Source: Salinibacterium sp. PAMC 21357 (GTDB taxonomy: Bacteria > Actinomycetota > Actinomycetes > Actinomycetales > Microbacteriaceae). Taken from it: a DNA stretch of 64,000 bases. Both the position numbers and the translations under genes were made by a program. The stretch is taken from contig NZ_AHWA01000002.1 of the NCBI RefSeq assembly GCF_000247645.1, forward strand, positions 1-64,000. Reading direction: 5' to 3'. Positions within the stretch are counted from its first letter, which is position 1. Every line of letters begins with the position of its first letter. The notes under the pieces were generated by a model. The model saw only the letters and a program-made list of their open reading frames with translations, was not told the DNA's origin and made no database searches. This document shows positions 7,332 through 59,901 of this stretch, piece by piece.

Positions 7332-7376
7332 GGTGGGAATCCGACAGAATGGTTAACGCAGGTTTCTGCGATCGCC
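7332..7376 (+). pseudogene. relic of the tlyA 3' end
   Basis: These 45 nt match the tlyA 3' terminus (about 4942-4986) at 35 of 45 positions by hand alignment. In the matching frame they read GGNPTEWLTQVSAIA, against GSNPTEWISQVAAIA in TlyA. There is weaker similarity for ~20 nt upstream. The relic sits between the copper cassette and nadK, i.e. where tlyA would have ended before the cassette was inserted. Confidence 0.75.
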
Positions 7377-7417
7377 GAGAGCGCGATTTACATCATCCTA
7401 CGACTGAGAGGGGCACG

Positions 7418-8362
7418 GTGCAGTCCGAGAACTCTCACGCTTCTGATCGCCACATTCTAGTAATCGCTCATACCGGTCGCGCCGAATCGTTGACCGCCGC
7501 AATTTCCGTGTGCCGCCAGCTCATTAGCGCCGGAATCGTGCCCGTCTTGGCACCCGACAGTTACGAAACTATTCTTCAGGCTGATCCGAGCCTTTCCCCT
7601 GTGTCCCGACTCGGTAATGAGGTCGAGACGGGTGAACTTGAGCTCGTGATCGTCTTGGGCGGCGATGGAACAATCCTTCGTGCTGCCGAGCTGACTCGCG
7701 GCTGCAGTGCGCCGCTCCTCGGCGTCAATCTGGGCCACGTCGGTTTCCTAGCAGAAAGCGAACGCGAAGAACTTACCTCTACTGTCGAGCGTGCGCTTGC
7801 TCGCGACTACCTCGTTGAAGAGCGCATGACGCTCTCGGTGAGAGTGAAAGTCGACTCAGAGGTTGTCTACGAATCGTGGGCTCTTAACGAAGCCACTGTT
7901 GAAAAGGCGAGCCGTGAGCGGATGCTCGAAGTCGTCATCGAAGTCGACGGCCGGCCGCTCTCCTCGTTTGGCTGCGACGGTGTCGTGATGTCCACTCCGA
8001 CCGGATCTACGGCCTACGCGTTTTCGGCAGGAGGGCCCGTCGTCTGGCCGAGTCTCGACGCGATCTTGCTCGTTCCACTCAGCGCGCATGCGTTGTTTGC
8101 ACGACCCATTGTTGTCGGCCCCGATTCGGCTCTTGCCGTTGAGGTGCTTGATCGCAATATGGGAATCGGGGTGCTGTGGTGTGACGGCCGCCGCGCCTTC
8201 GACCTGCCCCGTGGCGCACGCGTCGTCGTGCGACGCTCGCCCGTGCCAGTGCGGCTTGCCCGGCTTTCGCAGGGTCCATTCACTGATCGTCTCGTCAAGA
8301 AATTCAATTTGCCTGTCAACGGATGGCGTGGGCCAGCCTCGGAGGAGGGAAACCAGTCGTGA
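7418..8362 (+). CDS. nadK: NAD kinase
   Basis: 314-residue ATP/polyphosphate-NAD kinase converting NAD+ to NADP+. It shows the family motifs VLGGDGTILRAAEL (GGDGT), NLGHVGFLAE, and the glycine-rich STPTGSTAYAFSAGGP. The GTG at 7418 is chosen because GAGAGGGG lies just upstream and the product then starts MQSENSHASDRHILVIAHTG, the normal family N-terminus. The longer frame from 7277 reads through the tlyA relic. The stop overlaps recN as GTGA, so the two are translationally coupled. Confidence 0.95.
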   Translation: MQSENSHASDRHILVIAHTGRAESLTAAISVCRQLISAGIVPVLAPDSYETILQADPSLSPVSRLGNEVETGELELVIVLGGDGTILRAAELTRGCSAPLLGVNLGHVGFLAESEREELTSTVERALARDYLVEERMTLSVRVKVDSEVVYESWALNEATVEKASRERMLEVVIEVDGRPLSSFGCDGVVMSTPTGSTAYAFSAGGPVVWPSLDAILLVPLSAHALFARPIVVGPDSALAVEVLDRNMGIGVLWCDGRRAFDLPRGARVVVRRSPVPVRLARLSQGPFTDRLVKKFNLPVNGWRGPASEEGNQS

Positions 8363-10065: not shown

Positions 10066-10209
10066 CGAGAGTGCGGCTGCTGACGTGAGCGCGAGCGGCG
10101 CTGGGTGCTAATTTGCAGCGAATTGCAGGCCGCGCGAGCATTCCGAGCATTCGAAGATTGTGCCCAGAAAAGCTCCGTCGACCTCGGCTCTGGGCGCGCA
10201 GGCTGTTAA

Positions 10210-12595
<2,386 letters not shown>

Positions 12596-44101: not shown

Positions 44102-46965
44102 GGTGCGGTCGGCTTTCCGCCGGCAAGCAGACGCTCGGCCCACTCAGAAAGCCGCGAGCGATCGATCTTGGAGTTGTGGCGGATGTCGGTCGGCAGTTGC
44201 GGAACAACAAGCACAGCAACCAGCGGCAGCGACGTACTCTCGCGCACGGCAGCCGTCAGTTCGGGGCTAGCAAGTCCGGGGCGCTTGGCCGTAGGAATCG
44301 TTTCGACAACCGCGACGGCCTGGCGCACACCGTGCGGACCCACGCCGACGACAGCGGCCCGGCGCACGGCCGTCACCCCTTCGATATCCTGTTCCGTGCC
44401 CACGGGGGCGATGGGTCCCGTTGCGCTCACGATGACATGCGGCAGTCGACCTTCGACCCAGAGGCGTCCGAGTTCGTCGAGATGTCCGACGTCACCGGTG
44501 CGATGCCAGCGCGCGGGGGAGCCAGCCGCAACGTTTGTCGCGTCGCCCGCATCCGTTGCATCCGTATTCTCCGCAGCATCCGCGGCAGCAGCATCCGTAG
44601 CAATTTCGGTTCCATGAACGGCGGCGCGATCGGTCAGCCACAATCGGTCGTAGTGATCTTTCAGGTGCGGTGCCGAGATGATGATCTCGCCCAGAACGCC
44701 GGGCTCGGTGCTCGGTGTGCCGGTCGCGGCACCGTCGGAATCGAGGGCACTGATGCGCACGAGATTGTCGCCGATCGGCTTCCCGACGCAGACACCGGTG
44801 TTGGCGTCACCGGCGGCGGCGCGGATCCCCTCGAGAGTGATGTCGGTCACGAGCAGGCATTCGGTCATGCCGTAAGGCGAATGTGGGGTCGCGTTGGGCA
44901 TGAGTTCCCCGACCGACGTGAGCATGTCGCCACTGATCGGTGCCCCGGTGGAGAGGAACGTGTGCACGCGTGCAAGCTCGCTGCGGTCGTCAGCGGTGAG
45001 ATCTCCCGCGGTCGCGACGACGTTGAGAATTGCGGCGGGGGAGAGAAACACCATGCTGGCGCCGGATGCTTCCACTGCGGCCGCGACGGCCCGGGCGGTG
45101 AGAGTGCGGGGAGAGGAAACATCCATCTCCGGTGTCACGGATCGTGTACCGAGGGCTGGACCGAGCAGGGCGAAGGGCGCAAAGCCGGTCACGAGCCCGG
45201 TGTCTGCCGTCACTTCGAAGTGGCGTGCGAGAACGTCGCGCACGGCGGAGAGCTGACGGTGGCGGTAGACGACGCCCTTGGCGGGGCCGGTGGATCCGGA
45301 GGTGAAGAGAATTGCGGCGTCATCGTCACCCCGTGGTGGTGCCGGCAGCGGCGTGTCAGCGCCGAGCGTGATGAGGTCACGAAGGCTGTACGAAACGCCG
45401 AGAGCGACGGCGGAGATTTTCGGCAGTCGCGCGGCGGAAATACGCACTCCGGGCCACCCCAGTGTGCGGGCGGCGGCGAGACCGGGGGCTTCGCCGATGA
45501 CGAAGTCGGGCCACGATCCGCGCACGGCGCGGGTGAGTCCTTTGACACCCAGGCCGGCATCCGCGACGACCACAACGGCGCCGATGCGGAAGCAGGCGTA
45601 CACCACGGCCGTCAGCGTCGGCCCGGGCGGGATCAGCAGGGAAACCCGCTGGCCTTTGCGCACACCAATGCTGGTGAGGCCGGCGGCGAGCTGGCTCACG
45701 CGGTCGGCGAGTTGCTTCCAACTGACCTGCTGTGGGCCACGGCTCCCGCGCGTTGACATGTCGATGACGGCGGTCGCGGTGTGATCGCGGCGGGCGTCGA
45801 GGTTGTGCCAGAGCGGGACGAAGGATGCGTCATCCGCGACGGAGTCGTTGGATTCTGAGGCGGAGGCAGAGGCGGAGGCGTCGGTGTCGGTCGCTGCTGA
45901 GTCAGCCGCGTGGATGCCAGCTTCTTCGGAGTCAGACACGACGGAGCCGGCCGCTGCAGCGAAGGCCTCGCGAGGCGACAGGGCTGACGAACCGGGATCG
46001 CTAAGGCTGGCAGAGTTGTCGCCAAGCCACGTCAACACCGATGCGGCGTAGGGTGCGTCTTCGGCGAGCATGTGGCCGGCGCCTTCGAAGCGGTGCACGT
46101 TGGCGTGGGGGAGGCGCTCGATGAGGTCGTCGAGGTAGTAGTCGCTGAAGATGGGGTCGCGCGGGCCCCACAGCATGAGCGTCGGCAGGTCGAGCGCGGC
46201 GACTCCGGCGGCGATGCGTTCGAGTTCGGGGAAGCTTTCGTGGCTGGCGTCGGCGGGGATGTCGGCAACGAAGCCGCCGATTCCTCCGCGGCGATCGGCG
46301 GTGCGATACGGCGCGCGGTAGGCATCCTTCACGGCGGCGTCGAGCGGATCCGTGGTGAGCGCCAACGTGGTTTCGAGGAACGCGGGGGTGCGCACGGTGG
46401 AGGAGGCGAGCATCCCGCGCGCCCGGGCGAGCCGCAACGGTGCGGGGATCGGCTTGCCGGCTTCGTGATGCACGGCGGTGTTGAGCAGCATGACGCCGGT
46501 GAGTTGCGCCGGGTGGTCGACGGCCCAGCCAAGGGAAAGGACGCCGCCCCAGTCGTGGCCGAGCGAGATGACGGGCCCGGTGAGGTCGAGGGTGTCGGTG
46601 AAGGCTGAGAGGTCGCTGACCCGTTGGGCGAGCGGGCGGTGGATGCCGGTGCGCTCTGAGAACCCCATGTCGAGTTGGTCGACGGCGATGATGCGCCACG
46701 CGGGCGCGCCAGCCTCGGCAGCCGCGAGTGATTGGTTGAGCAGGTCGCGCCAGTAGTACGACCAGGTCGGGTTGCCGTGCACGGCGAGGATGGTGCCGAT
46801 GACGGGCACGCCGAGGCGAGCGAGTTCGGCGCCGGTGTCGAGGTAGTGCCAGTCGTGGGTGAGTCCAGCATCCGCCCCGCTGCCGGGAACGGCAATGATG
46901 TGGCTGAAGCGCGGGTCGAGACCCGGCAGGTCGAGCGGTGGGGTGGCGGCGGGCGCAGTTACCAT
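44098..46965 (-). CDS. oleBC: OleBC fusion: beta-lactone decarboxylase - beta-lactone synthetase
   Basis: 955 residues. Residues ~1-340 are OleB, a haloalkane-dehalogenase-like alpha/beta hydrolase: AVHGNPTWSYYWRDLL, nucleophile in SLGHDWGG (Asp138), LWGPRDPIF and the late His in FEGAGHML. A ~45-residue Ser/Asp/Ala linker follows. Residues ~385-955 are OleC, an acyl-adenylate-forming enzyme: ILFTSGSTGPAKGVVYRH, SPYGMTECL, YDRLW, and WHRTGDVGHLDELGRLWVEGR. OleC closes the beta-lactone and OleB decarboxylates it to the cis-alkene. The B-C fusion is known from Micrococcus luteus and relatives. Confidence 0.92.
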   Translation of the reverse strand: MVTAPAATPPLDLPGLDPRFSHIIAVPGSGADAGLTHDWHYLDTGAELARLGVPVIGTILAVHGNPTWSYYWRDLLNQSLAAAEAGAPAWRIIAVDQLDMGFSERTGIHRPLAQRVSDLSAFTDTLDLTGPVISLGHDWGGVLSLGWAVDHPAQLTGVMLLNTAVHHEAGKPIPAPLRLARARGMLASSTVRTPAFLETTLALTTDPLDAAVKDAYRAPYRTADRRGGIGGFVADIPADASHESFPELERIAAGVAALDLPTLMLWGPRDPIFSDYYLDDLIERLPHANVHRFEGAGHMLAEDAPYAASVLTWLGDNSASLSDPGSSALSPREAFAAAAGSVVSDSEEAGIHAADSAATDTDASASASASESNDSVADDASFVPLWHNLDARRDHTATAVIDMSTRGSRGPQQVSWKQLADRVSQLAAGLTSIGVRKGQRVSLLIPPGPTLTAVVYACFRIGAVVVVADAGLGVKGLTRAVRGSWPDFVIGEAPGLAAARTLGWPGVRISAARLPKISAVALGVSYSLRDLITLGADTPLPAPPRGDDDAAILFTSGSTGPAKGVVYRHRQLSAVRDVLARHFEVTADTGLVTGFAPFALLGPALGTRSVTPEMDVSSPRTLTARAVAAAVEASGASMVFLSPAAILNVVATAGDLTADDRSELARVHTFLSTGAPISGDMLTSVGELMPNATPHSPYGMTECLLVTDITLEGIRAAAGDANTGVCVGKPIGDNLVRISALDSDGAATGTPSTEPGVLGEIIISAPHLKDHYDRLWLTDRAAVHGTEIATDAAAADAAENTDATDAGDATNVAAGSPARWHRTGDVGHLDELGRLWVEGRLPHVIVSATGPIAPVGTEQDIEGVTAVRRAAVVGVGPHGVRQAVAVVETIPTAKRPGLASPELTAAVRESTSLPLVAVLVVPQLPTDIRHNSKIDRSRLSEWAERLLAGGKPTAP

Positions 46966-47980
46966 GCGAGCTCCATCATTGCGGTGTTGAGGCCGGAGCC
47001 GACGCCCATGAGCAGCACGCGGTCGCCCTTTTTGAGGGTGCCTTGGGCTTCATCGAGGGTGATGGGGATCGAGGCGGGGCCGACGTTGCCATAGAGGGGG
47101 AAGGTGGTGGGTACGCGGTCGCGGTCGAGTTTCGCGGCTTTGACGATGGCGTTGGTGTGCACGGATGACACCTGGTGGGTGACGTACAGGTCCATCTTTG
47201 ACCAGTCCCATTCGGTGGATGCTTCTTTCCACGCCGAGACGACGAGGTCGAGGCCACCTTTAAGGAGGGCTTTCGCGTCGGTGAACATGCCGTCGACGCT
47301 GCCGACGCAGAGTTCGTGAAACTGGGTGGCCGCGCGGGTGACGCCGCCGAGAATCGGATGACCGGCCGGATGTTCGTCGGTGCGTCCGAGCACCGCAGCC
47401 GCAGCCCCGGAGCCGAGCGTGAGCGACGCGAACTCGCTCATGAAGCCCTCACGATCGGAGTCTTGCTTCAGCAGGCGGTCGATGGTGTTGGTTTGGATAT
47501 CGTCGGCATCTTCGCCATTGACGATGATCGCGTACTTGATCTGGCCGGATCGATCATGTTCGCGGCAAGGTTCATGCCGCTGACGAAGCCGAGGCACGCG
47601 TTCGCGACGTCGAAGTTGATCGCCGAGCTGGGCAGCCCAAGCCCGTGGTGCAGGCGCACGGCAACCGAAGGCTCGAGGTGTTTGCGGCTCACGGACGTGT
47701 TAATGAGGAGTCCGACTTCGGAGGCATCCACGCCCGCTTCAGCGAGGGCACGTTGGCCTGCTGAGACGGTGGCGTCGTCGGATGTTTCGCCGTCAGCCCA
47801 ATTGCGACGTTCCAGCACACCGGCCACTCGTTGCAGGAGTCTGCTGGGCAACGCAAGGCGCTCGAATGCCGGCGCTAGGCGCGTTTCGAGGTCGCCGGAT
47901 GTGGTTACACGGCTAGGTAGGGTACTCGCCACCGACAGCAGTGAAACGTTGGCAAAGCGAGTATTGGCATTTCCGGCCAC
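46959..47980 (-). pseudogene. oleA: OleA thiolase-like enzyme, one-base frameshift
   Basis: Start GTG 47980 with CGGAGG ahead; product begins VAGNANTRFANVSLLSVAS. All catalytic features of OleA (head-to-head condensation of fatty acyl-CoAs) are present: active Cys in NACLGFVSG, His in YVTHQVSSVHT, Asn in YGNVGPASIP. After AANMID the frame breaks near 47547 and continues one base off as GQIKYAIIVNGEDADD. Insertion of one base would give an uninterrupted ~340-residue OleA. Either a recent inactivating mutation or a sequencing error. Its stop overlaps the oleBC start. Confidence 0.85.
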
Positions 47981-48127
47981 GGAACCTCCGTCGAGAGAGC
48001 CAGACTGGCTCAGTAAGCAAGAGACCCAGTTTACGGCAGTTAGCCGAGAGGTAGGTTGACGTGGGGGCGTGGCCGCAGTGAGGCATCCGAACTCTGCTAG
48101 AAACACTCCGCAAGGGGTGTATTCCTT

Positions 48128-48481
48128 ATGCTGAGTGCCAAGTCAATTCGCCTGCTGCTCCCTGTGGCAATCTCTAAGTGTGGCCTTCGCGCGATCCGCT
48201 TCTGTGATGCTGAGGATGGCGCGGGTTTCGCTTGTCCTGACTTGTACCGCCACTTACATAAGCCCTTCGGTAAGCGTTTTGAGCTAGCGGTTGAGTTGCC
48301 ATCGCCGCCGGATATCGTGGTCTGGTATGCGCTGAACCGCAGCAAGGCGATGGGGGAGTTCAGCGATCGCGCCGTTGCCGTCATGAACGCCCTGAGCGGC
48401 CATGTCGCAATGCATCACCGCTTTGCGCTCGATGTCGAACGCTCCCGCCTCGTGAACGCGGAGATGGATTGCTACGCCTAG
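48128..48481 (+). CDS. hypothetical 117-residue protein
   Basis: Starts at ATG 48128 with AAGGGG ~12 nt upstream; predicted to be alpha/beta with clusters IVVWYALNRSKAMGEF and VAVMNALSGHVAMHHRFAL. No family recognised. Third-position GC is fairly high, which supports coding. An antisense frame of similar length exists but looks less protein-like. Divergent from oleA. Confidence 0.4.
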   Translation: MLSAKSIRLLLPVAISKCGLRAIRFCDAEDGAGFACPDLYRHLHKPFGKRFELAVELPSPPDIVVWYALNRSKAMGEFSDRAVAVMNALSGHVAMHHRFALDVERSRLVNAEMDCYA

Positions 48482-48653
48482 GCGGTTGCCTCGGTGGGTT
48501 CGGATGATGTGGTGGAGGTGTCGTCATCTCAAGTTCTTGAGGCGGGGCGCGTGTTCCCGACAGTCTCGTTTTGATCCTCGCCGGGAGCGAGGTTTCGCCC
48601 AGCGAGGAGGCTCGGTACGAAGTTACAATCGGGCTCACTGATGGGACTGCATC

Positions 48654-48917
48654 GTGCATCCTGTGCGGCTGGGCCCCTCGGTGCTGACCCTGTGTCGGCA
48701 ACAGGACGAGGCAGCAGACACGGATGCGCTCGTAGAAGCTGGACTGACCCCTCGCCAAGCCGAAGTGCTCATCACTCTCACGCGTACCGGAGGCTCGAAC
48801 AACGCGCTAGTGCGCGAACTGGGCATATCGGAGTCGATTGCCAAGAAGCACCTCGAAGGATGTTTTCGAGAGCTTCGGGAGAGCGGAAGCGTAACTCATG
48901 GCCTTCCGGCACATTGA
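48654..48917 (+). CDS. small LuxR-type helix-turn-helix protein
   Basis: 87 residues, almost only a GerE-type HTH: LTPRQAEVLITLTRTGGSNNALVRELGISESIAKKHLEG. It has no sensor domain. Either a stand-alone DNA-binding regulator or the C-terminal scrap of a larger LuxR protein. It lies ~90 nt before the Hachiman pair and could regulate it. Start GTG 48654; no strong ribosome site. Confidence 0.5.
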   Translation: MHPVRLGPSVLTLCRQQDEAADTDALVEAGLTPRQAEVLITLTRTGGSNNALVRELGISESIAKKHLEGCFRELRESGSVTHGLPAH

Positions 48918-49004
48918 TGCTGTCTAGGCTGGGTGCGACGCGCCGCCGGTCGGTGGGCCTTAGTTGAAAGATATTTACCTCCCGCGCCCCTAGTCTTAGG
49001 GTCC

Positions 49005-49799
49005 ATGGAAGGGATTCGTCAATATAGCGCTGCGAGTTCGACTCTCGCGATTGTCGATCTGATCTCAGAAGAGTTCAGTGCCCACCTCAAAGAGCGGCTT
49101 TCGGCCTTCTGTTTTGGCGCGGTTCAGGCGGCGGAAGATGCTTCGTATTATTCATTCGAGCGAACTCTCCGCGAATTTCTTGAACGGTACGATTCCAAAG
49201 CTCACTCCACGAAAATTGGCATGGCCGGTGAATTGATAATCCATGCATTGATGCCGCACATTCATCCCGGCTTAACTAGCGCGGCTGTCTTTTTCAACAA
49301 GGAAGAGAGGAGTATCAAAAAGGGCTTTGACAGCACCTTCTACGCAGCAGCGAGCTCGGCAATATGGTACGCCGAGGTCAAATCTGGCGAGGTGAGATCG
49401 GGACAGTCAGCTGACGAAAAGGTAGCCAGTCTCATTGGGTTAGCAGCCTCCGGAGTTGAGCAGATGCTTGGCAGTGGGGCTCTTCGCTCTCGTTGGGACT
49501 CTGCCATTGTCGATGCCGCACTGACTCTTGAGTCGAGCGAAGCCGCCACAGTGAAGAAGCTGCTCCGAAGCGATGCCGACTCGATAGCGCAACAAGAGGA
49601 GTTCACAAAGAATGTAATTCTGGCGGCGGCTGTGATGCACGAAATCAGCCACTGTCAGGTTAGCGACAGCCATTTGTCCTCCATAGTTGCCGACTTGGAT
49701 TCGTCAGGCCGGTTTTCGGCAACGCAGTTGCTCGTGGTTCAGCAGGAAGCGATCGAATCGTTGATTTCAATTCTTCGAGGGATGGCTGACGATGGCTGA
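49005..49799 (+). CDS. hamA: HamA-type nuclease (DUF1837) of a Hachiman system
   Basis: 264 residues. The core carries a PD-(D/E)XK-like arrangement: KIGMAGELIIHALM (Glu76), KKGFDSTFYA (Asp109) and WYAEVKSGEV (Glu124-x-Lys126). This matches the DUF1837 effector of the Hachiman anti-phage system, which is released to degrade DNA when its helicase partner senses damage. The ATG at 49005 gives a clean N-terminus; the longer frame from 48933 is not protein-like. Its 3' end overlaps the helicase gene by 8 nt, as expected for a hamAB pair. Base composition is more AT-rich than in the olefin operon. Confidence 0.82.
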   Translation: MEGIRQYSAASSTLAIVDLISEEFSAHLKERLSAFCFGAVQAAEDASYYSFERTLREFLERYDSKAHSTKIGMAGELIIHALMPHIHPGLTSAAVFFNKEERSIKKGFDSTFYAAASSAIWYAEVKSGEVRSGQSADEKVASLIGLAASGVEQMLGSGALRSRWDSAIVDAALTLESSEAATVKKLLRSDADSIAQQEEFTKNVILAAAVMHEISHCQVSDSHLSSIVADLDSSGRFSATQLLVVQQEAIESLISILRGMADDG

Positions 49800-52278
49800 A
49801 CAAGCTGACATCTCCATTGCCAAACTGCGAAATCACTCGAACCTCGACGACTCGGTATTTTTTGCACTCTATTTGAAGCTGATGAAAAGTGAGCAGCTGA
49901 GTGACGAAGAGCTGAGGGACATCCTGCGATTCGCCATAATTTTCTTGCGATCTAACGACGACCTTGTGTCGCGTTTCGGGTACAGGATCATTTTGCAATA
50001 CGGCGAAGTCACTCGCGACTATGAGCCGCTACATTCAGTTGCTCAGTCGCGTGATCTGATTCCTGTTGTTGCAGCCGCTGAGAGATTGAATCCGGAACTC
50101 GCATCGTCGGACACCTTTGCAAGAAATATGTTCGCAGCACATAGCTCGAATTTTGTGACGGAAGAGCAGGATGGCGGACGAGTGCTCCGGACGCGAGGAC
50201 AGATGCAGCTTCGAGCGTTCAATGCGAGTGAGCATGAGGCGATCGTCGTCGCCCCGACTTCGTATGGCAAATCTGAGATGTTAATCGAGAAAATTGCTCA
50301 AAATCTCCACGCAGTCACGTGCGTGCTCGTGCCAACTCGCGCTCTTATCGGACAGACACGGGCGCTCGTGATTGCGGACCGTCGAATTCGTGAAGCTAAG
50401 GTCCGAGTATTAACTCATCCTGATTCGTATACCGACGAAACACGCTTCGTTGCGGTCATGACACAGGAGCGATTGCACCGTTTACTGATAGAGCAACCAA
50501 CACTCCAGATAGATCAGCTATTGGTCGACGAGGCGCACAACCTTCTCGCGAGTGATTCGAGAGCGCTCGAACTCTCACAAGTGGTTCTTACTGCTCGGTC
50601 AAGAAATTCTGCGCTCGCAGTGACGTACTACACACCATTCATGTCGGAGCCCGAAAGCATAAGACACGTCAACGAGATGGACGCGGCGGTTCGTGCTCGA
50701 TCGGTGAATGAGCACGTGAAGACTGAGCTAATCATGTTCGCCCAGCCGGGAGGTGCGCTGCATCTCTACGATCAGTTTCTGAACCGGGCTATCGACTTAG
50801 AGGTACCGGTCGCGACGAACGAGATCGCCGCAATATTTGAGCTAGCCAAGCTGCGGACGCTCGTTTACGTAAACAGACCCAAGGATGCTCAAGACCTAGC
50901 TGGCCGGTTATCGGAGCAGACCGGTAGAGTGACGCTTTCGGCAGAGGCGCAGCGCGCGATCAAAGCAATCGCTGAGCTTATCGATCCCAGCTATAGCTTG
51001 ATTCGTGCGATCGAATCGGGTGTGCTCTTTCATCATGGCCAAGTTCCCGACGTTCTTCGTCAGTACATCGAAAGACTCTTTCGGGATGATTCCTCGACAC
51101 AACCGCGTTTGCTCGTCACAACGTCCACCCTTTTGGAAGGCGTTAACACGCCCGCGGATTGTCTAATACTCATGACACCTAGCCGTGGGCGTCGGAACTT
51201 GTCGAGGTCCGCGTTCCGGAACCTTATCGGAAGAGTGGCGCGCTTTCGGGAGGTATTCGATGCGAGGCGTCGAGACTTGGATCTGTTGCAACCAAGAATT
51301 CACCTCATCCGAAGCAGCTACGCGCGCGCCAATTGGAATATCCAAGGATTTCTCTCGGACGTTGCCAATCTCGCCAATAACGTAGAAGACAGCGTCGGTA
51401 ACCCACTTCTAGAGCGAAGCGAAGACATAGAGGGTCGCCGCGAAGCGCTGGAGTATTTAGAGAATATTGAGCCTGGTTCGTCGCTGCTGACTGACGCGCG
51501 AATCGCGAGGACGGAAGTAGGGAAGCTCTGCTTTCAAAACGGTATTCGCGATTTCGACATTTTGGAGAATGAAAGTGCGTTGCAGATGCGGGTTGAGACC
51601 GCGCGCGCGGCCCAACGCCTTCTGACCGAGCCTGCCGAAGTCGTCGAGACCATTTGCGATCTTTTCCTCGACGACGTAGAGCTTGAGGACACGCACCCGC
51701 TAACCCGCGTACGAGATTCAGACGGTGCCCGAGAATTCTACAAACTGTTTATCTCTTGGCGCTCTCAGAACGAGCCCTACAAGCGACTGATATCGCGCTT
51801 CGTGAGGTACTGGTCGCAACTAGACGAAGAATACGTTTTCGTTGGTTCGAAATGGGGGGAAGAAACCTACGGGCCGGACGGTGTACGAAAGCTGTACGTG
51901 CGAATGCGCGCGAAGAGTCGCGTGGAAATGATCAATCTTGCCGTCGCCAAAATCAAAGAGGAACAAGACTTCGTCGACTTCCATATTGTCAAGTACATTG
52001 AAATCATGAATTCTCTTGGTTTGGTTGACCGGGATCTCTACCACAGAATCAAATTCGGAACTGCGGACTCGTTCTTGATCTGTCTGCTTCGAAACGGGTT
52101 CTCTCCAGAACTTGCGCGATTGGTGCTCGAGAGTTATGCGGACGTTATCCGAGTCGATATTGCCGCTAGCGAGGTCACAGTGCCTCGAGTTCTCTCCGAA
52201 ACGATGAGCTCGAATGGCGAAAATGACGTCCTGATCTATGAGGCGGAGACTCTTGTCAACGCTGAATTTCCGCACTAG
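49792..52278 (+). CDS. hamB: HamB-type DEAD/DEAH helicase of a Hachiman system
   Basis: 828-residue superfamily 2 helicase. Motif I is VVAPTSYGKSEM (residues ~152-163), Ia is VLVPTRALIGQ, II is LLVDEAHN (~244-251), with VTYYTPF near motif III. The second RecA domain has LVTTSTLLEGVNTPADCLIL (IV/V) and FRNLIGRVARF (VI, QxxGRxxR-like). A ~330-residue C-terminal extension follows. In Hachiman, HamB is an ATP-dependent DNA sensor controlling HamA. Gene order, overlap and size fit. Confidence 0.85.
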   Translation: MAEQADISIAKLRNHSNLDDSVFFALYLKLMKSEQLSDEELRDILRFAIIFLRSNDDLVSRFGYRIILQYGEVTRDYEPLHSVAQSRDLIPVVAAAERLNPELASSDTFARNMFAAHSSNFVTEEQDGGRVLRTRGQMQLRAFNASEHEAIVVAPTSYGKSEMLIEKIAQNLHAVTCVLVPTRALIGQTRALVIADRRIREAKVRVLTHPDSYTDETRFVAVMTQERLHRLLIEQPTLQIDQLLVDEAHNLLASDSRALELSQVVLTARSRNSALAVTYYTPFMSEPESIRHVNEMDAAVRARSVNEHVKTELIMFAQPGGALHLYDQFLNRAIDLEVPVATNEIAAIFELAKLRTLVYVNRPKDAQDLAGRLSEQTGRVTLSAEAQRAIKAIAELIDPSYSLIRAIESGVLFHHGQVPDVLRQYIERLFRDDSSTQPRLLVTTSTLLEGVNTPADCLILMTPSRGRRNLSRSAFRNLIGRVARFREVFDARRRDLDLLQPRIHLIRSSYARANWNIQGFLSDVANLANNVEDSVGNPLLERSEDIEGRREALEYLENIEPGSSLLTDARIARTEVGKLCFQNGIRDFDILENESALQMRVETARAAQRLLTEPAEVVETICDLFLDDVELEDTHPLTRVRDSDGAREFYKLFISWRSQNEPYKRLISRFVRYWSQLDEEYVFVGSKWGEETYGPDGVRKLYVRMRAKSRVEMINLAVAKIKEEQDFVDFHIVKYIEIMNSLGLVDRDLYHRIKFGTADSFLICLLRNGFSPELARLVLESYADVIRVDIAASEVTVPRVLSETMSSNGENDVLIYEAETLVNAEFPH

Positions 52279-52378
52279 GCGTAACTGGCATCTGAGCGGG
52301 AATGTGTATCTTCAACACGGGGGTTGAATCGCCGACTGCACAGTCTGCGTGGAGGGTTACGAAATGACACGCGCGCGA

Positions 52379-52942
52379 CTATGCGAATACCCTCGCGTAC
52401 TCGCTACTGGAGAGCTCTTTATCGAGTCGCAGAACGAAAGCGCGAGCGAAATCGAAAGCAGATCGGGTAGTGCTGGACGACAGCTTAATCCGATCGCCGG
52501 ACACAAGAGCATCGAGATGAATGTTGAAACTCGATTCCAATCTGAGGCGTTCCTTTAGGCTTTTTGACTGCTGGGGTGACAGACCCCCAGTCCCATGGAC
52601 AATCGCATTCCTCAGGTCAATCAGGAGCAAGAAATCTGTCGACTCTTTTGTGCCTTTAATCGAGATACCGAAACCGTTTGAGAGCCAATCGAGCCGCTGC
52701 GACCAGGACTGGTGCATCTGCATTTCAATTGCTCGAAGCATTGAAATCTGAAACTGATTAGCTGTGGCATTCGCAGCTAGCGAAAGTCTATCGAGAGCCT
52801 TATCTACGTGCGCTTCAGCGATGCTAGCGACCTTTACTATCGTATCTTCCGCCACTCTGCTGTGCCTTTGCGTTTCCAGTGCTTCCCTAGAGAGAAGCCC
52901 GAGGGTGTATTCGGCGAGGCCAGTCCAATTATTGGCACTCAT
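52379..52942 (-). CDS. HEPN-family RNase coupled to reverse transcriptase
   Basis: 187 residues, all alpha-helical. Holds the HEPN active-site signature R-x4-H in IDLRNAIVHGTGG (Arg111, Asn112, His116), preceded by a long helix pair (TIVKVASIAEAHVDKALDRL) as in MAE_28990/RiboL-PSP-type HEPN domains. HEPN proteins are metal-independent RNases, usually the toxic effector of abortive-infection systems. Its ATG overlaps the reverse transcriptase TGA as ATGA, so the two products are made in step. In lactococcal AbiA a HEPN domain is fused behind the RT; here it is separate. The ~100 nt to hamB holds nothing else. Confidence 0.75.
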   Translation of the reverse strand: MSANNWTGLAEYTLGLLSREALETQRHSRVAEDTIVKVASIAEAHVDKALDRLSLAANATANQFQISMLRAIEMQMHQSWSQRLDWLSNGFGISIKGTKESTDFLLLIDLRNAIVHGTGGLSPQQSKSLKERLRLESSFNIHLDALVSGDRIKLSSSTTRSAFDFARAFVLRLDKELSSSEYARVFA

Positions 52943-54426
52943 GCGAACGCAGCGCCCCAAGCGAAGGCCTTCCCTGACAACCTGGAATCGCCGATGAACG
53001 CTTTGGCAACTTGGGAAGTCGCAGGCTCACCAAGGCGGCCCAAACAAGCCGCGAGTGCTGGACGGGAAAGCGTGGTGGCTGGCGAATACAAATCGGCGAG
53101 CTGCGTAGGTGTGATTAGTGACCTGCCGGAGAGCAGCCACGCTGCTTGTGCACGAACGAGTTCGTGCTGGTCGCCTATTTGTTCAATTGCCCAAGCCATG
53201 ACAACTTCGCTGTGCTCTCCCTCTAGCACCGACAGTTTCTCGCCCAGCCACAAAAGCCAGAGTTTTGTCCACGGTCCTTGGCGTTCCATCGCGACGAGAC
53301 TTCGTAGTGTCTGCCATTGGAGTTCGACCTCTTCGCGTTTGACAATATATTCAGCCACCGCGTCTAATCGCACGGGCTGGTAGAAGGCAATCTTTTCGAG
53401 TAGTGATCCGGGCAGAGGATCTGTGGCATTTTCTAGCGCTGACAATGCTGCGCCGATCGCACTCGCAAAATGGAGCGCTGCTTCAGCTGGATTTTTGGCC
53501 CAATCTTGTAAAATATTGCGGTACGCCTCCTCAAACGCTTCCTTGTCTTCCGGAGGAATCTCAACGGTATCCACGTCCTCATAGGGGCCAATAATGTAGT
53601 CGAAGTCGACCAAATCGCCTTTTGCCTTGTCGAAGTAGTTCTGGACGAAAGATTCGTGTTCTTTTTCACGCGCCTGTAGCGTTGCGGCTTTCTGAATTTT
53701 CGTCTTTTCAGATGAGAGAACGAGGCCGTAACGTCGTGCGACGCTAGCCGCCTCCTCTATGATCTCGTTTGCAATCCCCCAATTTTCGGCCAGCACTCGG
53801 AAATCGTCGGCATAACGTGCCACTAGGTGTCCACGTCGTTGGAGTGAGCGTTCGATGGCTGCAAGGTAGGTATCTGCCAGAAGGTCACTTGGTGCGAGCA
53901 TTTGGGGTAATCCGCGAGGCCGGCCAAAGGCTCCTTCGAGCAAAGCAACAACGGAGTCCGCCAAGCTGACATCCATCGTGTGTAGTATCAGTTCATTTCG
54001 CAAAGTTCCGTGGTCAACATACTCGTATGCCGCTGCAATGTCGATCGTGACTACATAGTGAGTCTCAGTCGAGGTGCCGGGCATCCCGAATGAAGTGAAA
54101 GTCTTGTACTTTCCTGGCCCGCGAGTTGGTTCTGGCAAGGTCGGGGCAAGGGCGCCCGTCAACGCCACATACATTGTTCGATCGACTGGTGACAACACGG
54201 TGACGGGCCTCGGCCCGAACCCCTGCCGGGGCATTGAGATCGTTTCAGTCTCTACGATTCGTCCTGCTTCGTATCCGGTTGCGGTTGCTTTAACGAGTTC
54301 GCTCTCGTTACCAGTGAGGCACTCATCCCCGATCAGAAGGGGAAGATGATCTAGCGGTATAGCTGTTGCAGCCTTGGCGGCCCCCATCAGATCTAGTTTT
54401 CGGATCGTGCTTTTGGGTAGTTCCAT
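52939..54426 (-). CDS. defence-type reverse transcriptase with helical C-terminal half
   Basis: 495 residues. RT motifs: VVTIDIAAAYEYVDHGTL (domain 3/A; Asp129), RGLPQMLAPSDLLADTYLAAI (172-190, domain 4/B), HLVARYADDFRVLA (domain 5/C; Asp207-Asp208), YGLVLSSEKTKIQ (domain D/E). Residues ~300-495 are helical and repeat-like (QHELVRAQAAWLLSG, RPALAACLGRLGEPA) and resemble HEAT repeats. There is no maturase, integrase or retron-type thumb evident, so this belongs with the UG/Abi defence RTs rather than a group II intron. Coupled to a HEPN RNase gene. Confidence 0.85.
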   Translation of the reverse strand: MELPKSTIRKLDLMGAAKAATAIPLDHLPLLIGDECLTGNESELVKATATGYEAGRIVETETISMPRQGFGPRPVTVLSPVDRTMYVALTGALAPTLPEPTRGPGKYKTFTSFGMPGTSTETHYVVTIDIAAAYEYVDHGTLRNELILHTMDVSLADSVVALLEGAFGRPRGLPQMLAPSDLLADTYLAAIERSLQRRGHLVARYADDFRVLAENWGIANEIIEEAASVARRYGLVLSSEKTKIQKAATLQAREKEHESFVQNYFDKAKGDLVDFDYIIGPYEDVDTVEIPPEDKEAFEEAYRNILQDWAKNPAEAALHFASAIGAALSALENATDPLPGSLLEKIAFYQPVRLDAVAEYIVKREEVELQWQTLRSLVAMERQGPWTKLWLLWLGEKLSVLEGEHSEVVMAWAIEQIGDQHELVRAQAAWLLSGRSLITPTQLADLYSPATTLSRPALAACLGRLGEPATSQVAKAFIGDSRLSGKAFAWGAAFA

Positions 54427-55059
54427 AGCCTTATGGTTCCTAAATCTATTCTCGATTGTTTCCTCGATACTCTATGGGGCTCAGTGCGCTGCTGGCTCGT
54501 GAAGATGAAACAATCGTCAGCGAGGTGAAACCAGTGCGGACCCGCGATCCTGTCCCTTGCGGTGCCGGCATGCTCGTGCAAATGAGACGCGCGGCGGTAA
54601 GGGCTTAGGGCATCGCGCCCACGCTAGTAGATTGATCTTCCCCGAAACGAGAGAGCCCAATTCGCCGGCGAATAGAGTGCGTGTTCGATAGTCAGGAAGA
54701 CACTTAATCTTGCCATGTCGTCAGCCGTTGCCGTGTATCTAATCTTCCAATCTTGGGTATCCCCGCGCTTTCTTGGTTTCAAAGACGCACAGCTCTGCAA
54801 CCTCGACCCTGAGAACTAATGGAGTGGATCTGCTCGCGCGCCAGCGTACGCGGCGTGCGTCGCCTCCGCTCCGACTTCGAGCACACGCGACCCACGCGGG
54901 TTCGGCCTGCCAATTCGCTCAGTCCCAGCGCCGAATTATCTCCGCGCTGATGAGTCCCCTGCCGAGCAGAGGGAAAACGTCGCGCTCGCCGGCGGAGAGC
55001 GTAGTCGAGGCTTGCTCCGTTTTGGGTGCTGGCGTCTTGCGCGGATGGGCATAGCAACC
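54427..55059. other. 633-bp non-coding stretch upstream of the RT gene
   Basis: No convincing gene on either strand. It must contain the RT promoter. A 9-bp inverted repeat GATTGTTTC (54454-54462) / GAAACAATC (54507-54515) and a 14-bp palindrome ATTCGCCGGCGAAT (54660-54673) could fold in a leader or non-coding RNA. Some defence RTs use an upstream RNA as template, so the stretch deserves attention; no known RNA family is recognised. Confidence 0.45.
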
Positions 55060-55465
<406 letters not shown>

Positions 55466-55740
55466 CCATCCGAGGGGGCGGAAGCAAGACGGAGCGCAAT
55501 ACTCCGGGCAGAACCAGCATGCTCGGCGCGAGGAGTTAAAAACGCTAGAAGCTGACGAGGAAGACGACCTTCGTTGCCACTTGCAAAAATTCTGAATGCG
55601 ACGAGAACACCGCCTGGGGCGTACGATTCTGGACTCACAATTTCTTGGTACCAAGGTCGATACAGTAGTCGGTTGGAAGACGGTGAAGTGATACCTTCGG
55701 AGCACAAAACGTTTGGACTCCCGGGCGGTAGTGAAAGTTT

Positions 55741-56700
55741 ATGAACACAGCAAAACTCCATCACTTCAACCCACAGTTCGTTCTGCGGGGATTTGCTGAT
55801 GGCAATCAGCGGATCACGACGATCCGTCTTCCGGAGCGGAAGGCGCGTACGACGCGAGTCCGTGAGACCGCGGCAGAGAACCATCTGTATTCTCTCCCTG
55901 GGCACCCCAGCGGGGCAGACATTTTCGAGAAGGCACTCGGGGCGGGGATTGAGGCGGACGTCGCCGATATTTTCGCAAGAATCGAAGGTGGCGAATGGCC
56001 GTTGTCGCGCGACCCGCGCGACACGCTCGCTGAGTTCATCGCCTTGCAGGTCCTGCGAGGGCCAGAGCAACGCCAGCGGATGGAATCCGCGTCGTCGGAT
56101 CTATTTTTGAGGGCTGCTGGTCAGCTCGGCCGAGATGGACTCACGAGATTCGCGTCTGATGCAGCTGGGCGTGAAGTCAGTGAGGCGGAGGTGGATGAAC
56201 TTTGGAACACCGTCGCAACACCTGACGGCGCGCAAATCACATATTTGCCTCGTGACCACATCGAGATGATGGGCGAGGTCACGGAGTCGATCGCGGCGGC
56301 GATTGCCGCACGCCCGTGGAAGTTAATCCGGTTCAGCCGGCGTGCGCTGGTCACTTGCGACGCGCCGGTCACGCCGGTCCCATATGACACAGAGGGTCCA
56401 TTCATAGGCAACGGAATTGCCACCGCCCGTTTCGTGCTGTATCCAATCTCGCGCAGGATGGGCCTCGTAATGAGCCATGCACTGGATAGAAATGATGCTG
56501 GGGACGATCTCAATGAATTGAGTAACCGAGCACGGTCGGGCTCCTTGGATAATGAATCCGCCGGGACGACTGCGGTCGAAAAGCTGATGAATGAACACAC
56601 CGCAGCACACGCTATCCGCAACATTTACCACCATCCCGACGACCCTTTGTCTGTTCCAGAGGCATACCGCGAGGGGGGAGCATCAACGTCGTCGACCTGA
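55741..56700 (+). CDS. DUF4238 protein
   Basis: 319 residues. N-terminal signature KLHHFNPQFVLRGFAD matches DUF4238 (H-[FY]-x-P-x-[FY]-x-L-x-x-F). The middle has EFIALQVLRGPEQR and a C-terminal alpha/beta part RFVLYPISRRMGLVMS. Function unknown; the family is frequent in accessory regions and near defence genes. Divergent from the DUF368 relic and flanked on the right by a GNAT gene on the other strand. Ends with a Ser/Thr-rich tail. Confidence 0.8.
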   Translation: MNTAKLHHFNPQFVLRGFADGNQRITTIRLPERKARTTRVRETAAENHLYSLPGHPSGADIFEKALGAGIEADVADIFARIEGGEWPLSRDPRDTLAEFIALQVLRGPEQRQRMESASSDLFLRAAGQLGRDGLTRFASDAAGREVSEAEVDELWNTVATPDGAQITYLPRDHIEMMGEVTESIAAAIAARPWKLIRFSRRALVTCDAPVTPVPYDTEGPFIGNGIATARFVLYPISRRMGLVMSHALDRNDAGDDLNELSNRARSGSLDNESAGTTAVEKLMNEHTAAHAIRNIYHHPDDPLSVPEAYREGGASTSST

Positions 56701-56803
56701 TCAACTCCGGCCGAGCACTCAACTCGTAGCATGACGGGAATCGCCGTCAATCACTTTCGACAGCTCGCGTTGTTCGCGAAACACCTGCTTCATTTTTGCG
56801 CTG

Positions 56804-57400
56804 CTAAGTGTGCGAATCTTTGTCAAAGGATAGCGATGAGTGAACCCCATGTGAACGTTCGATAATCCAAGGCCGGTGACTCTCGCTTTGCGCAAAGCCC
56901 AAGTGGCTACGTCGGTACATGCTTACAGGCACGCGTCGGATACTCGCACCAATGGATTTCGCGAAATGATCATTCAATGCGAGCGCGCCAACGTTATTGT
57001 CTAGGGTGGCCAGCGCGATATTTCGTTCTGGCGCTCGCTCCGCAACTCTACTCAGTAGTGCGAGCGCGACGCCGCGACGCCTCGCTGCGGGGACTACAGC
57101 AACCAGTTGAATAAACAACGGATCGGATTCTTCTGGGCCTATGAAAACAAGACTAAAACCGACAGGCTGCTCGCCGATTCGTGCCAGAAGAACGAACTGC
57201 TGTTCAATTTTCGACACGTTGTATTCGACGCTCTGGATGTAGGTCGACTCACACTCAGCCTGTACCCAGCTCATTAACCGTCCGTCCTGCCTCGTCGCTT
57301 CCGCGTCACGAACCGAGACTTTTGAACTGGGCAGCGCCCTGAGACGGAGTCTCCATGCGGCGAACTCTGGTTCTTCGTAGGGAGAAATGAGATTGAACAC
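56804..57400 (-). CDS. GNAT family N-acetyltransferase
   Basis: 198 residues with the GNAT core: VGFSLVFIGPEESDPLFIQLVAVVPAARRRGVALALL (acetyl-CoA motif RRRGVA) and ALATLDNNVGALALNDHFAKSIGA (motif B). Substrate unknown. The unusual ~45-residue C-terminal extension after the core (FAQSESHRPWIIERSHG) is not typical. Single gene between two DUF368 relics. Confidence 0.82.
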   Translation of the reverse strand: MFNLISPYEEPEFAAWRLRLRALPSSKVSVRDAEATRQDGRLMSWVQAECESTYIQSVEYNVSKIEQQFVLLARIGEQPVGFSLVFIGPEESDPLFIQLVAVVPAARRRGVALALLSRVAERAPERNIALATLDNNVGALALNDHFAKSIGASIRRVPVSMYRRSHLGFAQSESHRPWIIERSHGVHSSLSFDKDSHT

Positions 57401-57785
57401 ACAAAAACAGTAGCAACGATGAACGAGCCATGTTTAGGCTCACTGCAGACAGTTGGAAGGGAGGTGGCTTTTAGCTCAGGCCGTGCCCTGATCCTGGCGT
57501 TCGTCCTACGATTGCGCTGAATTCGATCATTGTGTCGATAACCCCTCTATGTGCGCGATCGGCTTCTGCAAACGTGGCCAGAGCTCCTCTGGCTTGTAGA
57601 GGAAAATCTATCGAGGGTTCCAAGTCGTATTCTTGGGCGTTGCGGCTGAGCCCATTAGGGCACGCCGCGCAAGCTGTGCAACGTTCGGCGGTGCCACTCA
57701 GCGCAGTCTGCCCAGATAAGGCCAGCGAAAGGCGCTAAACCGCAAGCGAGGATCACACGCCGCGCGGCTCAAGACCTGCCAGACA
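57401..57785. other. 385-bp stretch without a recognisable gene
   Basis: Between the GNAT start and the DUF368 relic. A 68-codon + frame (57532-57738) shows no family or good ribosome site. Nothing else seen. Confidence 0.5.
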
Positions 57786-58166
57786 TCAGGAGAGAGCATC
57801 CGCCGCTTTCAGCAGGGCGACCTCTGCCGCCCGGATGCCCAGCACGAGCACGGCGCCGATTACGAGAAGAAGCAACACGAATCCGAAGTCAGCTTCGGGT
57901 GCCAGGATTTCGCCGGACTCGGTCTGCCACGGCCACAACGCGCGCGACGAGCCGAGCGTGAGGCTCGTCATGATGACGAGGGTAACGCGGCGTTGGTTCT
58001 TAATTGCCACTGCAGTCCCTGAAACGAAGAGGCCGATGATGGCGCCGATGGCGAATGCTCCGAGGTAGCCGACGTTGCGGTCGTTGACGGCGGCGAGGGT
58101 CGGAGCGTACATGCCGAGGATCAGCAGCAGGATCGTCAATCGATCGTTGGTTGCTGCCTCGTTCAC
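57786..58166 (-). pseudogene. decayed copy of the DUF368 gene 3' half (copy 2)
   Basis: From about residue 10 the frame reads LLLILGMYAPTLAAVNDRN, then GYLGAFAIGAIIGLFVSG, RVTLVIMTSLTLGSSRALWPWQT and APEADFGFVLLLL. It matches the intact DUF368 gene from its 'LLLILGMYAP' segment to near the C-terminus, with a small deletion and a changed end. Better preserved than copy 3. It has an ATG but lacks the N-terminal 60% of the family, so I treat it as a relic. Confidence 0.8.
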
Positions 58167-58267
58167 TGACTGGATGCGTATCGTTCAGTGGTGGCTACGA
58201 TTGGTAGATAACTCAACCTCACCATTGTTGCGGTCGGTACTTCCGATGGGCCTCCGCGCTTCTGCTC

Positions 58268-58631
58268 GTGCAGGGTATGCTCATGGAACCCGTAGTGTTC
58301 ATTGGTTTGCTCGCGCTCGTCGCGGTAGGGCTCCCGCAAGGATCTGTGACTGCGCAGGCCCAGGTCCCCCCCCTACTCGCAAGAGAACGTCTACCTGATG
58401 ATGTCGATGAGCGGAATCCTCGCTGTACTGCGCATCGTCGGTGCTATTGCACTGTGGCAAAGGAAGATGCGGGGCTTGACGCTGTTGATAATCAACTGCA
58501 TCGTCACCCTTACTTTGATGGACTTCTTACTGCCCGCCGGAATCGCCGACGGCCTCCCGTCAGGAATCGTACTCATATTGATCCTGCGCGGATGGTTCGG
58601 CAGCCGACTAATTGAAGAATTCGTCTCTTAG
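58268..58631 (+). pseudogene. small membrane protein broken at a C8 tract
   Basis: The first frame gives MLMEPVVFIGLLALVAVGL (one membrane helix). It runs through QAQVPP into a run of eight C (58366-58373) and then loses coding character. Removing one C joins it to the frame YSQENVYLMMSMSGILAVL, followed by three more hydrophobic helices (LTLLIINCIVTLTLMDFLL; SGIVLILILRGWFGSRL), ending at 58631. The joined ~120-residue product would be a four-helix membrane protein of unknown family. The break at a homopolymer suggests slippage or a sequencing error. Confidence 0.55.
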
Positions 58632-58666
58632 CGGAGTGAGGTGAGGATCAGCTAAGAACGCGGATG

Positions 58667-59638
58667 CTACTTCTCGAGAATGTCGGAGTTGGGGTCGTCC
58701 AGCTCGGGATCGGCCAATACCTCCGGCGACAGCATCCGCCGCTTCACAAGCGCAGCTTCTGCCGCCAAAATGGCCAGCACGACCACGGCGCCGAGAGCGA
58801 TGAGAAGCAGCACGATTCCGAAGTCGGCTTCGGGTGCCAAGACTGCGCCTTCCTCGGTCTGCCAGGGCCAGAGGGCGCGAAGCGAGCCGAGCATGAGGCC
58901 CGTCATGATGACGAGGGTGACGCGGCGGCGGTTTTTGAGTAGCCATTGCAGGGCGGAGACGAAGAGGCCGAGGCCGATGATGGCGCCGATAATGAAGGCG
59001 CCGAGGTAGCCGAGGTTGCGGTCGTTGACGGCGGCGAGGGTCGGGGCGTACATGCCGAGGATCAGCAGTAGGTAGGAGCCGGAGACTCCGGGCAACACGA
59101 GAGCGCAGACCGCCAGCGCGGCCGCGAGAGAGACGATGATCAGCGCGGGGTCGGCATCCGCCGCTTTCGGCAAGCTCGTGAGCGCGACGGCAACGCCGGC
59201 GGCGAGGAGGCCGATAAGGATTTCGCGGAACGTCCAACGCCCTCCGACCATGCGTGCCGGCACGATGAGCGACGCCGCAATGAGGCCGGCGGAGACCGCG
59301 CGGGTTCCGGTGGGGTACTGCTCGATGAGGGGCGCAAGGAGAGCGGCGCCCAGGACGATGGCGAGCAGCATCCCGATACCGATGGGGAGAACGACGTTCC
59401 AGCGCACCGAACGAAAGTGGGCGGCAGCGCGGGAGAGGCCGCGACCTCGGATGCCGTCCGCAACCGTGAGCGCCACACCGCGAGCGAGGTGCCCGGCTCC
59501 GTCGATGAGGGAATCGTAGACGCCGACGAGTAGCGCGATGGTGCCGCCGCTGACGCCGGGAACGATCTCAGCGAAGCCGATGAGCATGCCGCGCAAGGCA
59601 TCACCGACAGTGCGGATGACGGGGTGTACTCGGGTCAT
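58667..59638 (-). CDS. DUF368 integral membrane protein
   Basis: About 323 residues from MTRVHPVIRTVGDALRG. Family signature GFAEIVPGVSGGTIALLVGVYDSLI near the N-terminus, repeated in inverted-topology fashion as LVLPGVSGSYLLLILGMYAP near residue 200; about eight to nine hydrophobic segments. DUF368 proteins are linked to polyprenyl-phosphate flipping (PopT/DUF368 group); this gene's role is inferred from the family. The internal ATG is chosen; the frame to 59749 has no coding character upstream. Two partial copies of its 3' half lie downstream. Confidence 0.87.
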   Translation of the reverse strand: MTRVHPVIRTVGDALRGMLIGFAEIVPGVSGGTIALLVGVYDSLIDGAGHLARGVALTVADGIRGRGLSRAAAHFRSVRWNVVLPIGIGMLLAIVLGAALLAPLIEQYPTGTRAVSAGLIAASLIVPARMVGGRWTFREILIGLLAAGVAVALTSLPKAADADPALIIVSLAAALAVCALVLPGVSGSYLLLILGMYAPTLAAVNDRNLGYLGAFIIGAIIGLGLFVSALQWLLKNRRRVTLVIMTGLMLGSLRALWPWQTEEGAVLAPEADFGIVLLLIALGAVVVLAILAAEAALVKRRMLSPEVLADPELDDPNSDILEK

Positions 59639-59901
59639 TGCGTGCTCGTTCTCATGTCGTGGGTGTGTGGCGCTAACAGAGGCAGATCGATGGCCTCGCA
59701 CGGGAAGTCGATCTAGTTTAGGGCGCGCCGGCTGAACGGGTCGCCGCAAGAAGGATCGAGCGAGACGCCGCGGCCCAGACGCTCGCAGCGGCGGAGTCTT
59801 AACGGTAGGAAGTCATTCGTGATGGGAAGCCGCTACGTCAGAATCATCTACGTGCGGCTGCCTAACCTCATTTGCCCGGCGGTGCACCAATGCTGGTGTT
59901 C

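Follow-up and report, generated by a model that had tools for sequence, protein, structure and literature searches.

The 64,000-nucleotide stretch of DNA analyzed here (the window) is positions 1 to 64,000 of contig NZ_AHWA01000002.1 from Salinibacterium sp. PAMC 21357. On its minus strand it encodes a reverse transcriptase (RT), followed directly by a small protein with a HEPN motif. A first-pass annotation had described these genes as a split AbiA-like system, possibly an undescribed subtype. Its account of the locus itself was accurate. Both open reading frames (ORFs) are where it placed them on the minus strand, the RT motifs are intact with YADD at residues 205 to 208, the RT gene and the next gene share an ATGA, the small protein has an R-x4-H signature, and the numbering of Asp207, Asp208, and His116 is correct. 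The features are as follows, with invariance counted over the 16 intact loci described below.

52939..54426, minus strand: RT gene, 495 residues, a UG22-type defense-associated RT with a C-terminal helical (alphaRep/HEAT-like) domain, from RT_UG22, RVT_1, and alphaRep matches
54010..54057, minus strand: RT motif A region, residues 124 to 139, containing D129 (invariant, 16/16)
53803..53814, minus strand: YADD motif, residues 205 to 208, containing D207 and D208 (both invariant, 16/16)
53581..53583, minus strand: Tyr282, in the linker that joins the palm to the helical domain, a candidate for priming DNA synthesis, from conservation and analogy with AbiA Y298
52987..53229, minus strand: helical-repeat region, about residues 400 to 480, an approximate mapping from profile positions 418 to 480
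52939..52942, minus strand: ATGA overlap, shared by the TGA that ends the RT gene and the ATG that starts the HEPN gene, read from the sequence
52379..52942, minus strand: RT-associated HEPN gene, 187 residues
52592..52612, minus strand: HEPN motif RNAIVHG with R111 and H116 (R, N, H, and G invariant, 16/16)

The RT ORF is uninterrupted by stops. It has D129 in motif A (which we take, from general knowledge of RTs, to be catalytic), GLPQ/S180, YADD, and a GLxL..K motif, so that motifs A, B, C, and D are all intact. Its match to the PADLOC-DB profile RT_UG22 covers nearly the whole profile (E value, 9.5e-153; 507.6 bits). The second-best RT group was UG21, with 102.9 bits, and AbiK scored 27 bits among the matches listed, which were the best 25 of 56 rows and included no AbiA row. 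The RT also matched Pfam RVT_1 (E value, 8.3e-12). It scored far below the cutoffs of the group II maturase model TIGR04416 (group_II_RT_mat; 56.5 bits against 300) and of the two retron models that matched it at an E value of ≤1, NF038233 (retron_St85; 13.2 bits against 235) and NF042941 (11.1 bits against 600). Therefore, by these models, the first-pass view that this is neither a maturase nor a retron RT is upheld. A profile made from our RT alignment (A3) matched alphaRep/HEAT proteins at positions ~418 to 480, with E values down to 2e-11. These matches support the helical-repeat C terminus that had been proposed, and by them the RT has the predicted architecture of Class 1, an RT fused to an alpha-helical, HEAT-like alphaRep domain (as defined in the text available from PMC13174585).

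The small protein carries R111-N-A-I-V-H116. It matched the PADLOC-DB profile RTasHEPN over nearly its whole length (E value, 4.7e-40; 135.1 bits), and its gene adjoins that of the RT. The matches of both proteins are far beyond chance. Pfam HEPN_RiboL-PSP matched the partner weakly (E value, 0.003), and a PDB sequence search with it returned nothing useful. Structure prediction gave the partner a HEPN fold, as expected of a HEPN superfamily member and as the first-pass annotation had anticipated.

The 2023 release of PADLOC-DB holds profiles for both proteins, RT_UG22 (PDLC03760) and RTasHEPN (PDLC03820), both under DRT. Therefore, the pair is not an undescribed kind, as had been suggested, and is already catalogued as a candidate antiphage system. 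The UG classification is reportedly that of Mestre et al. 2022. The literature that we searched contained no paper with UG22 and reverse transcriptase and none with RTasHEPN. The highest RT identity was ~38%. The window pair is thus a further, diverged member of the RT_UG22 and RTasHEPN kind, and nothing that we tested distinguishes it.

Linkage of the RT and HEPN genes

We gathered 17 HEPN-linked UG22 loci, the window included, from genome searches, genome contigs, and two Rhodococcus plasmids, with duplicates merged. We set aside one from Streptomyces turgidiscabies (L044), in which the RT is truncated and no HEPN could be convincingly recognized, leaving 16 intact loci. Locus L029 (genome G747) was dropped because only the C-terminal half of UG22 matched; its 240-residue ORF aligns with UG22 profile positions 287 to 474, comprises a helical domain but no RT, and may be a remnant.

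In all 16 intact loci, the gene after the RT encodes a HEPN protein with RN-x3-HG, and the two are separate ORFs. This is the conservation that the first-pass annotation had asked about, although the exact 4-nucleotide overlap (ATGA or GTGA) is found in 7 of them. The overlap is 11 to 34 nucleotides in another eight, if the first possible start is taken, and in one locus the HEPN gene lies 5 nucleotides downstream of the RT. The UG22 profile itself was scored on 9 of the 16 RTs and RTasHEPN on 14 of the 16 HEPNs, and all of those scored were positive; membership of the rest comes from alignment, tree, and motif. RTasHEPN also matched all 11 members of our HEPN alignment (A4). Ten aligned HEPN relatives share 21 to 31% identity with the window HEPN, yet R111, N112, H116, and G117 (RN-x3-HG, that is, RX4H) are invariant in 16/16, which fits the R-x4-6-H catalytic motif of the HEPN RNase superfamily. 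Because the RX4H residues and the flanking N and G persist through this divergence, we expect that the partner is probably a working RNase.

A tree built from 36 RTs placed all 16 HEPN-linked ones in a single group (support, 98/97), with L047 on a long branch. The group stood beside three longer UG22-like RTs and apart from the UG23 and group II rows. The RT and HEPN distance matrices were correlated (Mantel r = 0.90; none of 10,000 permutations was as high). We also compared the occurrence of the two proteins in two scans, each of a sample of 396 genomes in the same order. Full-length HEPN-linked UG22 RTs (E value, <1e-130) were found in four genomes, and RTasHEPN (E value, ≤1e-5) was found in exactly those four. 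At an E value of 1e-20, UG22 matched in eight genomes; in the remaining four, the matches were to one longer RT, one C-terminal fragment, and two RTs that aligned in part. Therefore, the RT-HEPN pair is real and, within this clade, constant. Profiles, linkage, and tree together show that the window locus encodes a UG22-type defense-associated RT with an RT-associated HEPN partner.

The named chromosomal hosts of the pair belong to seven actinobacterial families, and two further loci are on plasmids. This spread suggests to us that the two genes move together. An alignment-based RT scan of genome contigs yielded 11 loci, and single-sequence RT scans of viral contigs and genome contigs yielded no match. 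The sole RT from the alignment-based scan of viral contigs (L050) was judged unrelated, and there was no RT match in the phage collection. HEPN alone had no match in plasmids at an E value of 0.01, although two plasmid RTs have a HEPN adjoining.

Related Streptomyces RTs of group UG23 also have one small partner gene downstream, but their partners are 2TM SLATT or NUDIX proteins rather than HEPN. Among 392 Streptomyces genomes, 18 had an RT match at an E value of ≤1e-30, three of them HEPN-linked UG22. Downstream of the other 15 RTs we found SLATT (6 RTs), TM-NUDIX (8 RTs), or neither (1 RT). Four of the 15 were assigned to UG23 by profile, and one partner of each kind matched RTasSLATT or RTasNUDIX; the other partners were assigned by eye. 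The UG23-type RTs (L054 to L068) cluster in groups by their SLATT or TM-NUDIX partner. Both scanned partners also match PADLOC 2TM "Effector" models, which are presumably linked to CBASS. Because these sister RTs bear SLATT or NUDIX in the position that HEPN occupies here, the partner acts like an effector that can be swapped for another.

Candidate priming tyrosine in the RT linker

Across the 16 HEPN-linked RTs, 28 residues are invariant. Between K241 in motif D and L331 in the helical domain, the only one is Y282 (16/16), which is mostly followed by x-D. Tyrosine occupies this column in none of seven relatives without a HEPN link: the residue is S, T, or P in the three long UG22-like RTs and F in the four aligned UG23 RTs. 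The column is uncertain in UG23 because the linkers there are shorter (61 to 62 residues versus 86 to 127).

AbiA is reported to prime DNA synthesis from Y298 and Y303, in a flexible loop (residues 290 to 310) that joins its RT and helical domains; only Y298 is conserved, and Y298F was strongly compromised in defense (PMC11077055). AbiK is reported to prime from Y44, in a loop of its N-terminal region (PMC9508834). In its position relative to the domains, Y282 corresponds to the AbiA priming loop described in PMC11077055. The positional match rests on domain order rather than structure, and so Y282 as a priming site is a prediction by analogy. It gives the protein-primed synthesis put forward in the first-pass annotation a specific candidate residue.

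The likeness to AbiA therefore extends to an RT, a helical domain, a HEPN domain, and a linker tyrosine (Y298 in AbiA, Y282 here), as far as AbiA is described in PMC11077055. However, AbiA is a single chain, whereas here there are two proteins and a different UG group. The motif differs too, being RX6H (RNSNPVSH) in AbiA (PMC11077055) and RX4H in 16/16 HEPNs here. Thus, of the proposed "split AbiA-like" system, the tight linkage of RT to HEPN stands, but kinship with AbiA is reduced to an analogy (508 bits for UG22 versus 27 for AbiK, and RX4H rather than RX6H). An older sequence survey had predicted an active AbiA HEPN (PMC3710099); it was later reported to be enzymatically inactive, with RX6H residues that are catalytically dispensable for defense (PMC11077055).

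Further components and genomic surroundings

We looked for a noncoding RNA (ncRNA) or third component. An Rfam scan of window positions 48000 to 57500 at an E value of ≤1 gave no match, and in eight other loci it gave only subthreshold microRNA families, all on an inverted repeat in L053. This repeat (L053 positions 3664 to 3743) lies ~0.7 kb upstream of the RT start, scores below the gathering threshold for a microRNA family in both orientations, and is a chance palindrome or the end of a mobile element. Flanking DNA showed no conservation outside Streptomyces-wide repeats and one Rhodococcus plasmid pair. Four Streptomyces loci (L039, L041, L043, and the broken L044) share blocks of 81 to 96% identity upstream of the RT. 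We rejected these as an ncRNA because a 124-nucleotide piece of the L041 block matched in 33 of 41 Streptomyces genomes and an adjoining 226-nucleotide piece in 30 of 41, often partially, which marks them as genus-wide repeats. They are GC rich, lie just upstream of the RT in L041 and also in L039, L043, and L044, and may be an insertion hot spot. Mean folding z scores were −0.36 upstream, −0.10 downstream, and −0.21 in the coding control, so there was no average shift. L073 had a z score of −4.67 downstream, but its own coding control reached −4.02.

When the ORFs of 14 loci were compared, only RT and HEPN matched in five or more other loci. One unidentified ORF (L049_60) matched in three others, and a few more matched in one or two. 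The first-pass annotation had noted a neighboring Hachiman system, and this needs some qualification. HamB is strongly supported (E value, 3.4e-67), but the HamA match is weak (E value, 0.001), so that the Hachiman here may be divergent. Because only RT and HEPN recur in five or more other loci, Hachiman is a neighbor and not part of the system. Two features define the surroundings.

48933..52278, plus strand: Hachiman-like hamA (48933 to 49799, weak) and hamB (49792 to 52278, strong), convergent to the RT-HEPN operon
48050..58690, no strand: ~10.6-kb insertion (variable defense island) flanked by genes for a ketoacyl synthase and a DUF368 protein, from empty sites and G+C content

Six other genomes of the same genus have the DUF368 gene, and five regions were compared. 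In three of the five the site is empty, with the aligned ends of the DUF368 and ketoacyl synthase genes 146 to 188 nucleotides apart, and the other two hold other cargo. The G+C content is 0.52 to 0.60 inside the island, 0.62 to 0.70 on the left, and a mixed 0.57 to 0.66 on the right. The 3′ part of DUF368 (undecaprenyl phosphate translocase-like) is also present as decayed, incomplete copies at window positions 55126 to 55461, 57758 to 58131, and 58667 to 59749 and, in a congener, at L089 positions 6317 to 6911. These remnants flank island modules in both genomes, suggesting repeated insertion at the end of the DUF368 gene. The island site of this congener, one of the two with other cargo, also holds a C5 DNA methylase beside a HATPase protein with a TIR-like C terminus (L089 positions 7332 to 10816). 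The window island includes a DUF4238 protein (positions 55741 to 56700; Pfam E value, 2e-35; PADLOC DUF4238-Pers E value, 1.3e-8). The ketoacyl synthase III gene (positions 46959 to 48106), presumably oleA-like, looks broken or misassembled because it consists of two overlapping ORFs in different frames.

A model for the pair and its alternatives

Class 1 systems typically carry an alphaRep domain, and the members studied are reported to polymerize without a nucleic acid template (PMC13174585). In DRT1, a Class 3 RT-nitrilase, DNA synthesis and adducts are reported both to activate and to silence the nitrilase effector (PMC13275509). An RT that steers an effector by DNA adducts is the logic that we propose here, although DRT1 is one chain with a nitrilase, whereas the UG22 RT has a Class 1-like helical domain and a separate, predicted HEPN RNase. 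In the model that we favor, the RT would oligomerize through its helical-repeat domain and synthesize single-stranded DNA without a template, using its own linker Tyr282 as the covalent primer. The RT-DNA particle would bind the HEPN RNase and keep it silent. Phage replication proteins or nucleases might then disturb the particle or its DNA and free a HEPN dimer, which would cut host or phage RNA and stop the infected cell. If both proteins are translated in a coupled way from a single mRNA, the amount of toxic RNase would stay in step with that of the RT that controls it. We hold this full model, in which Tyr282-primed untemplated DNA silences the RNase until infection, only tentatively, at a probability of about 0.45.

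Several points weigh against it. The three longer UG22-like RTs, L003 (584 residues; UG22 E value, 1.7e-93), L004 (622 residues; 2.6e-75), and L028 (621 residues; 1.3e-81), have no recognizable HEPN in the DNA examined; for L003 and L004 this was the match with 1.5 kb to either side, and for L028 it was 19.5 kb (as L036). L003 has one marginal HEPN tblastn match (E value, 0.008). All three lie outside the 16-row HEPN group in the tree, and two bear an N-terminal extension. In the literature searched we found no experiment on a UG22 system. AbiA, the nearest studied protein with RT and HEPN, is reported not to need catalysis by its HEPN and perhaps not to kill cells (PMC11077055). A SLATT partner accompanies 82% of UG17 RTs (PMC8934634), and UG17 is apparently the ncRNA-using DRT10 of PMC12632851; therefore, the type of partner is no proof of an untemplated mode. 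Finally, a fast-evolving ncRNA could escape the Rfam, flank, and folding tests used here, and the direction of the DNA effect, inhibiting rather than activating HEPN, is a guess.

That direction could be reversed. The RT might stay idle until infection raises deoxynucleoside triphosphates or frees a trigger, and the new DNA would then recruit and dimerize HEPN, which would cut RNA. We think this rather unlikely. The same sequence evidence speaks for it as for inhibition, but the tight gene coupling seen here is more typical of a toxin held by its controller. DRT9 is reported to make DNA upon infection (PMC12489045), and DNA synthesis in DRT1 to activate its nitrilase (PMC13275509); nothing in the present data separates activation from inhibition. 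HEPN might instead be structural, stabilizing the RT oligomer while the DNA product is the antiviral agent and RNase activity is irrelevant. This would follow AbiA, in which HEPN is required for polymerase activity and yet R581A/H588A leave defense unaffected (PMC11077055). However, the AbiA motif is RX6H and its HEPN is reported to be inactive (PMC11077055), whereas R111, N112, H116, and G117 are invariant in 16/16 diverged HEPNs here, and we consider a purely structural role unlikely.

A plain toxin-antitoxin pair, in which binding of the RT helical repeats neutralizes HEPN and DNA synthesis plays a lesser part or none, seems very unlikely. D129, D207, and D208 are conserved in 16/16 RTs, which argues that polymerization is under selection. 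The motif RNxxxHG also lacks the tyrosine-bearing RX4HXY context of HepT. In MntA-HepT, a HEPN-MNT toxin-antitoxin system, the controller is a nucleotidyltransferase and not an RT, and its HEPN belongs to a different sequence family from that of the window HEPN. Hardly any weight falls on a Class 2-like system whose template RNA escaped detection. DRT2, DRT9, and DRT10 are reported to use ncRNAs (PMC12596737, PMC12632851), and ~170 to 360 nucleotides without listed ORFs lie upstream of the RT in the four loci examined (L026, L027, L048, and L074). Even so, the window locus has no Rfam match, the flanks are conserved only in repeats and one plasmid pair, folding is not in excess, and the alphaRep architecture is that of Class 1.

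In the boldest reading, the pair would be a two-protein immune switch, in which untemplated DNA grown on Y282 of the RT regulates a separate HEPN RNase allosterically or in the manner of an antitoxin, and the sister UG23 RTs would run SLATT or NUDIX effectors by similar logic, priming elsewhere. We regard this wider proposal as possible but doubtful. According to PMC13275509, the function of the random DNA made by Class 1 defense RTs has yet to be determined. If the two-protein switch is real, DNA of random sequence would serve as a physical signal and not as information. Because UG22 places the polymerase and the presumed toxic enzyme on two polypeptides, each can be expressed, mutated, and recombined alone. 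With a single tyrosine predicted to switch off DNA synthesis, how that synthesis connects to control of the effector can be tested directly in UG22.
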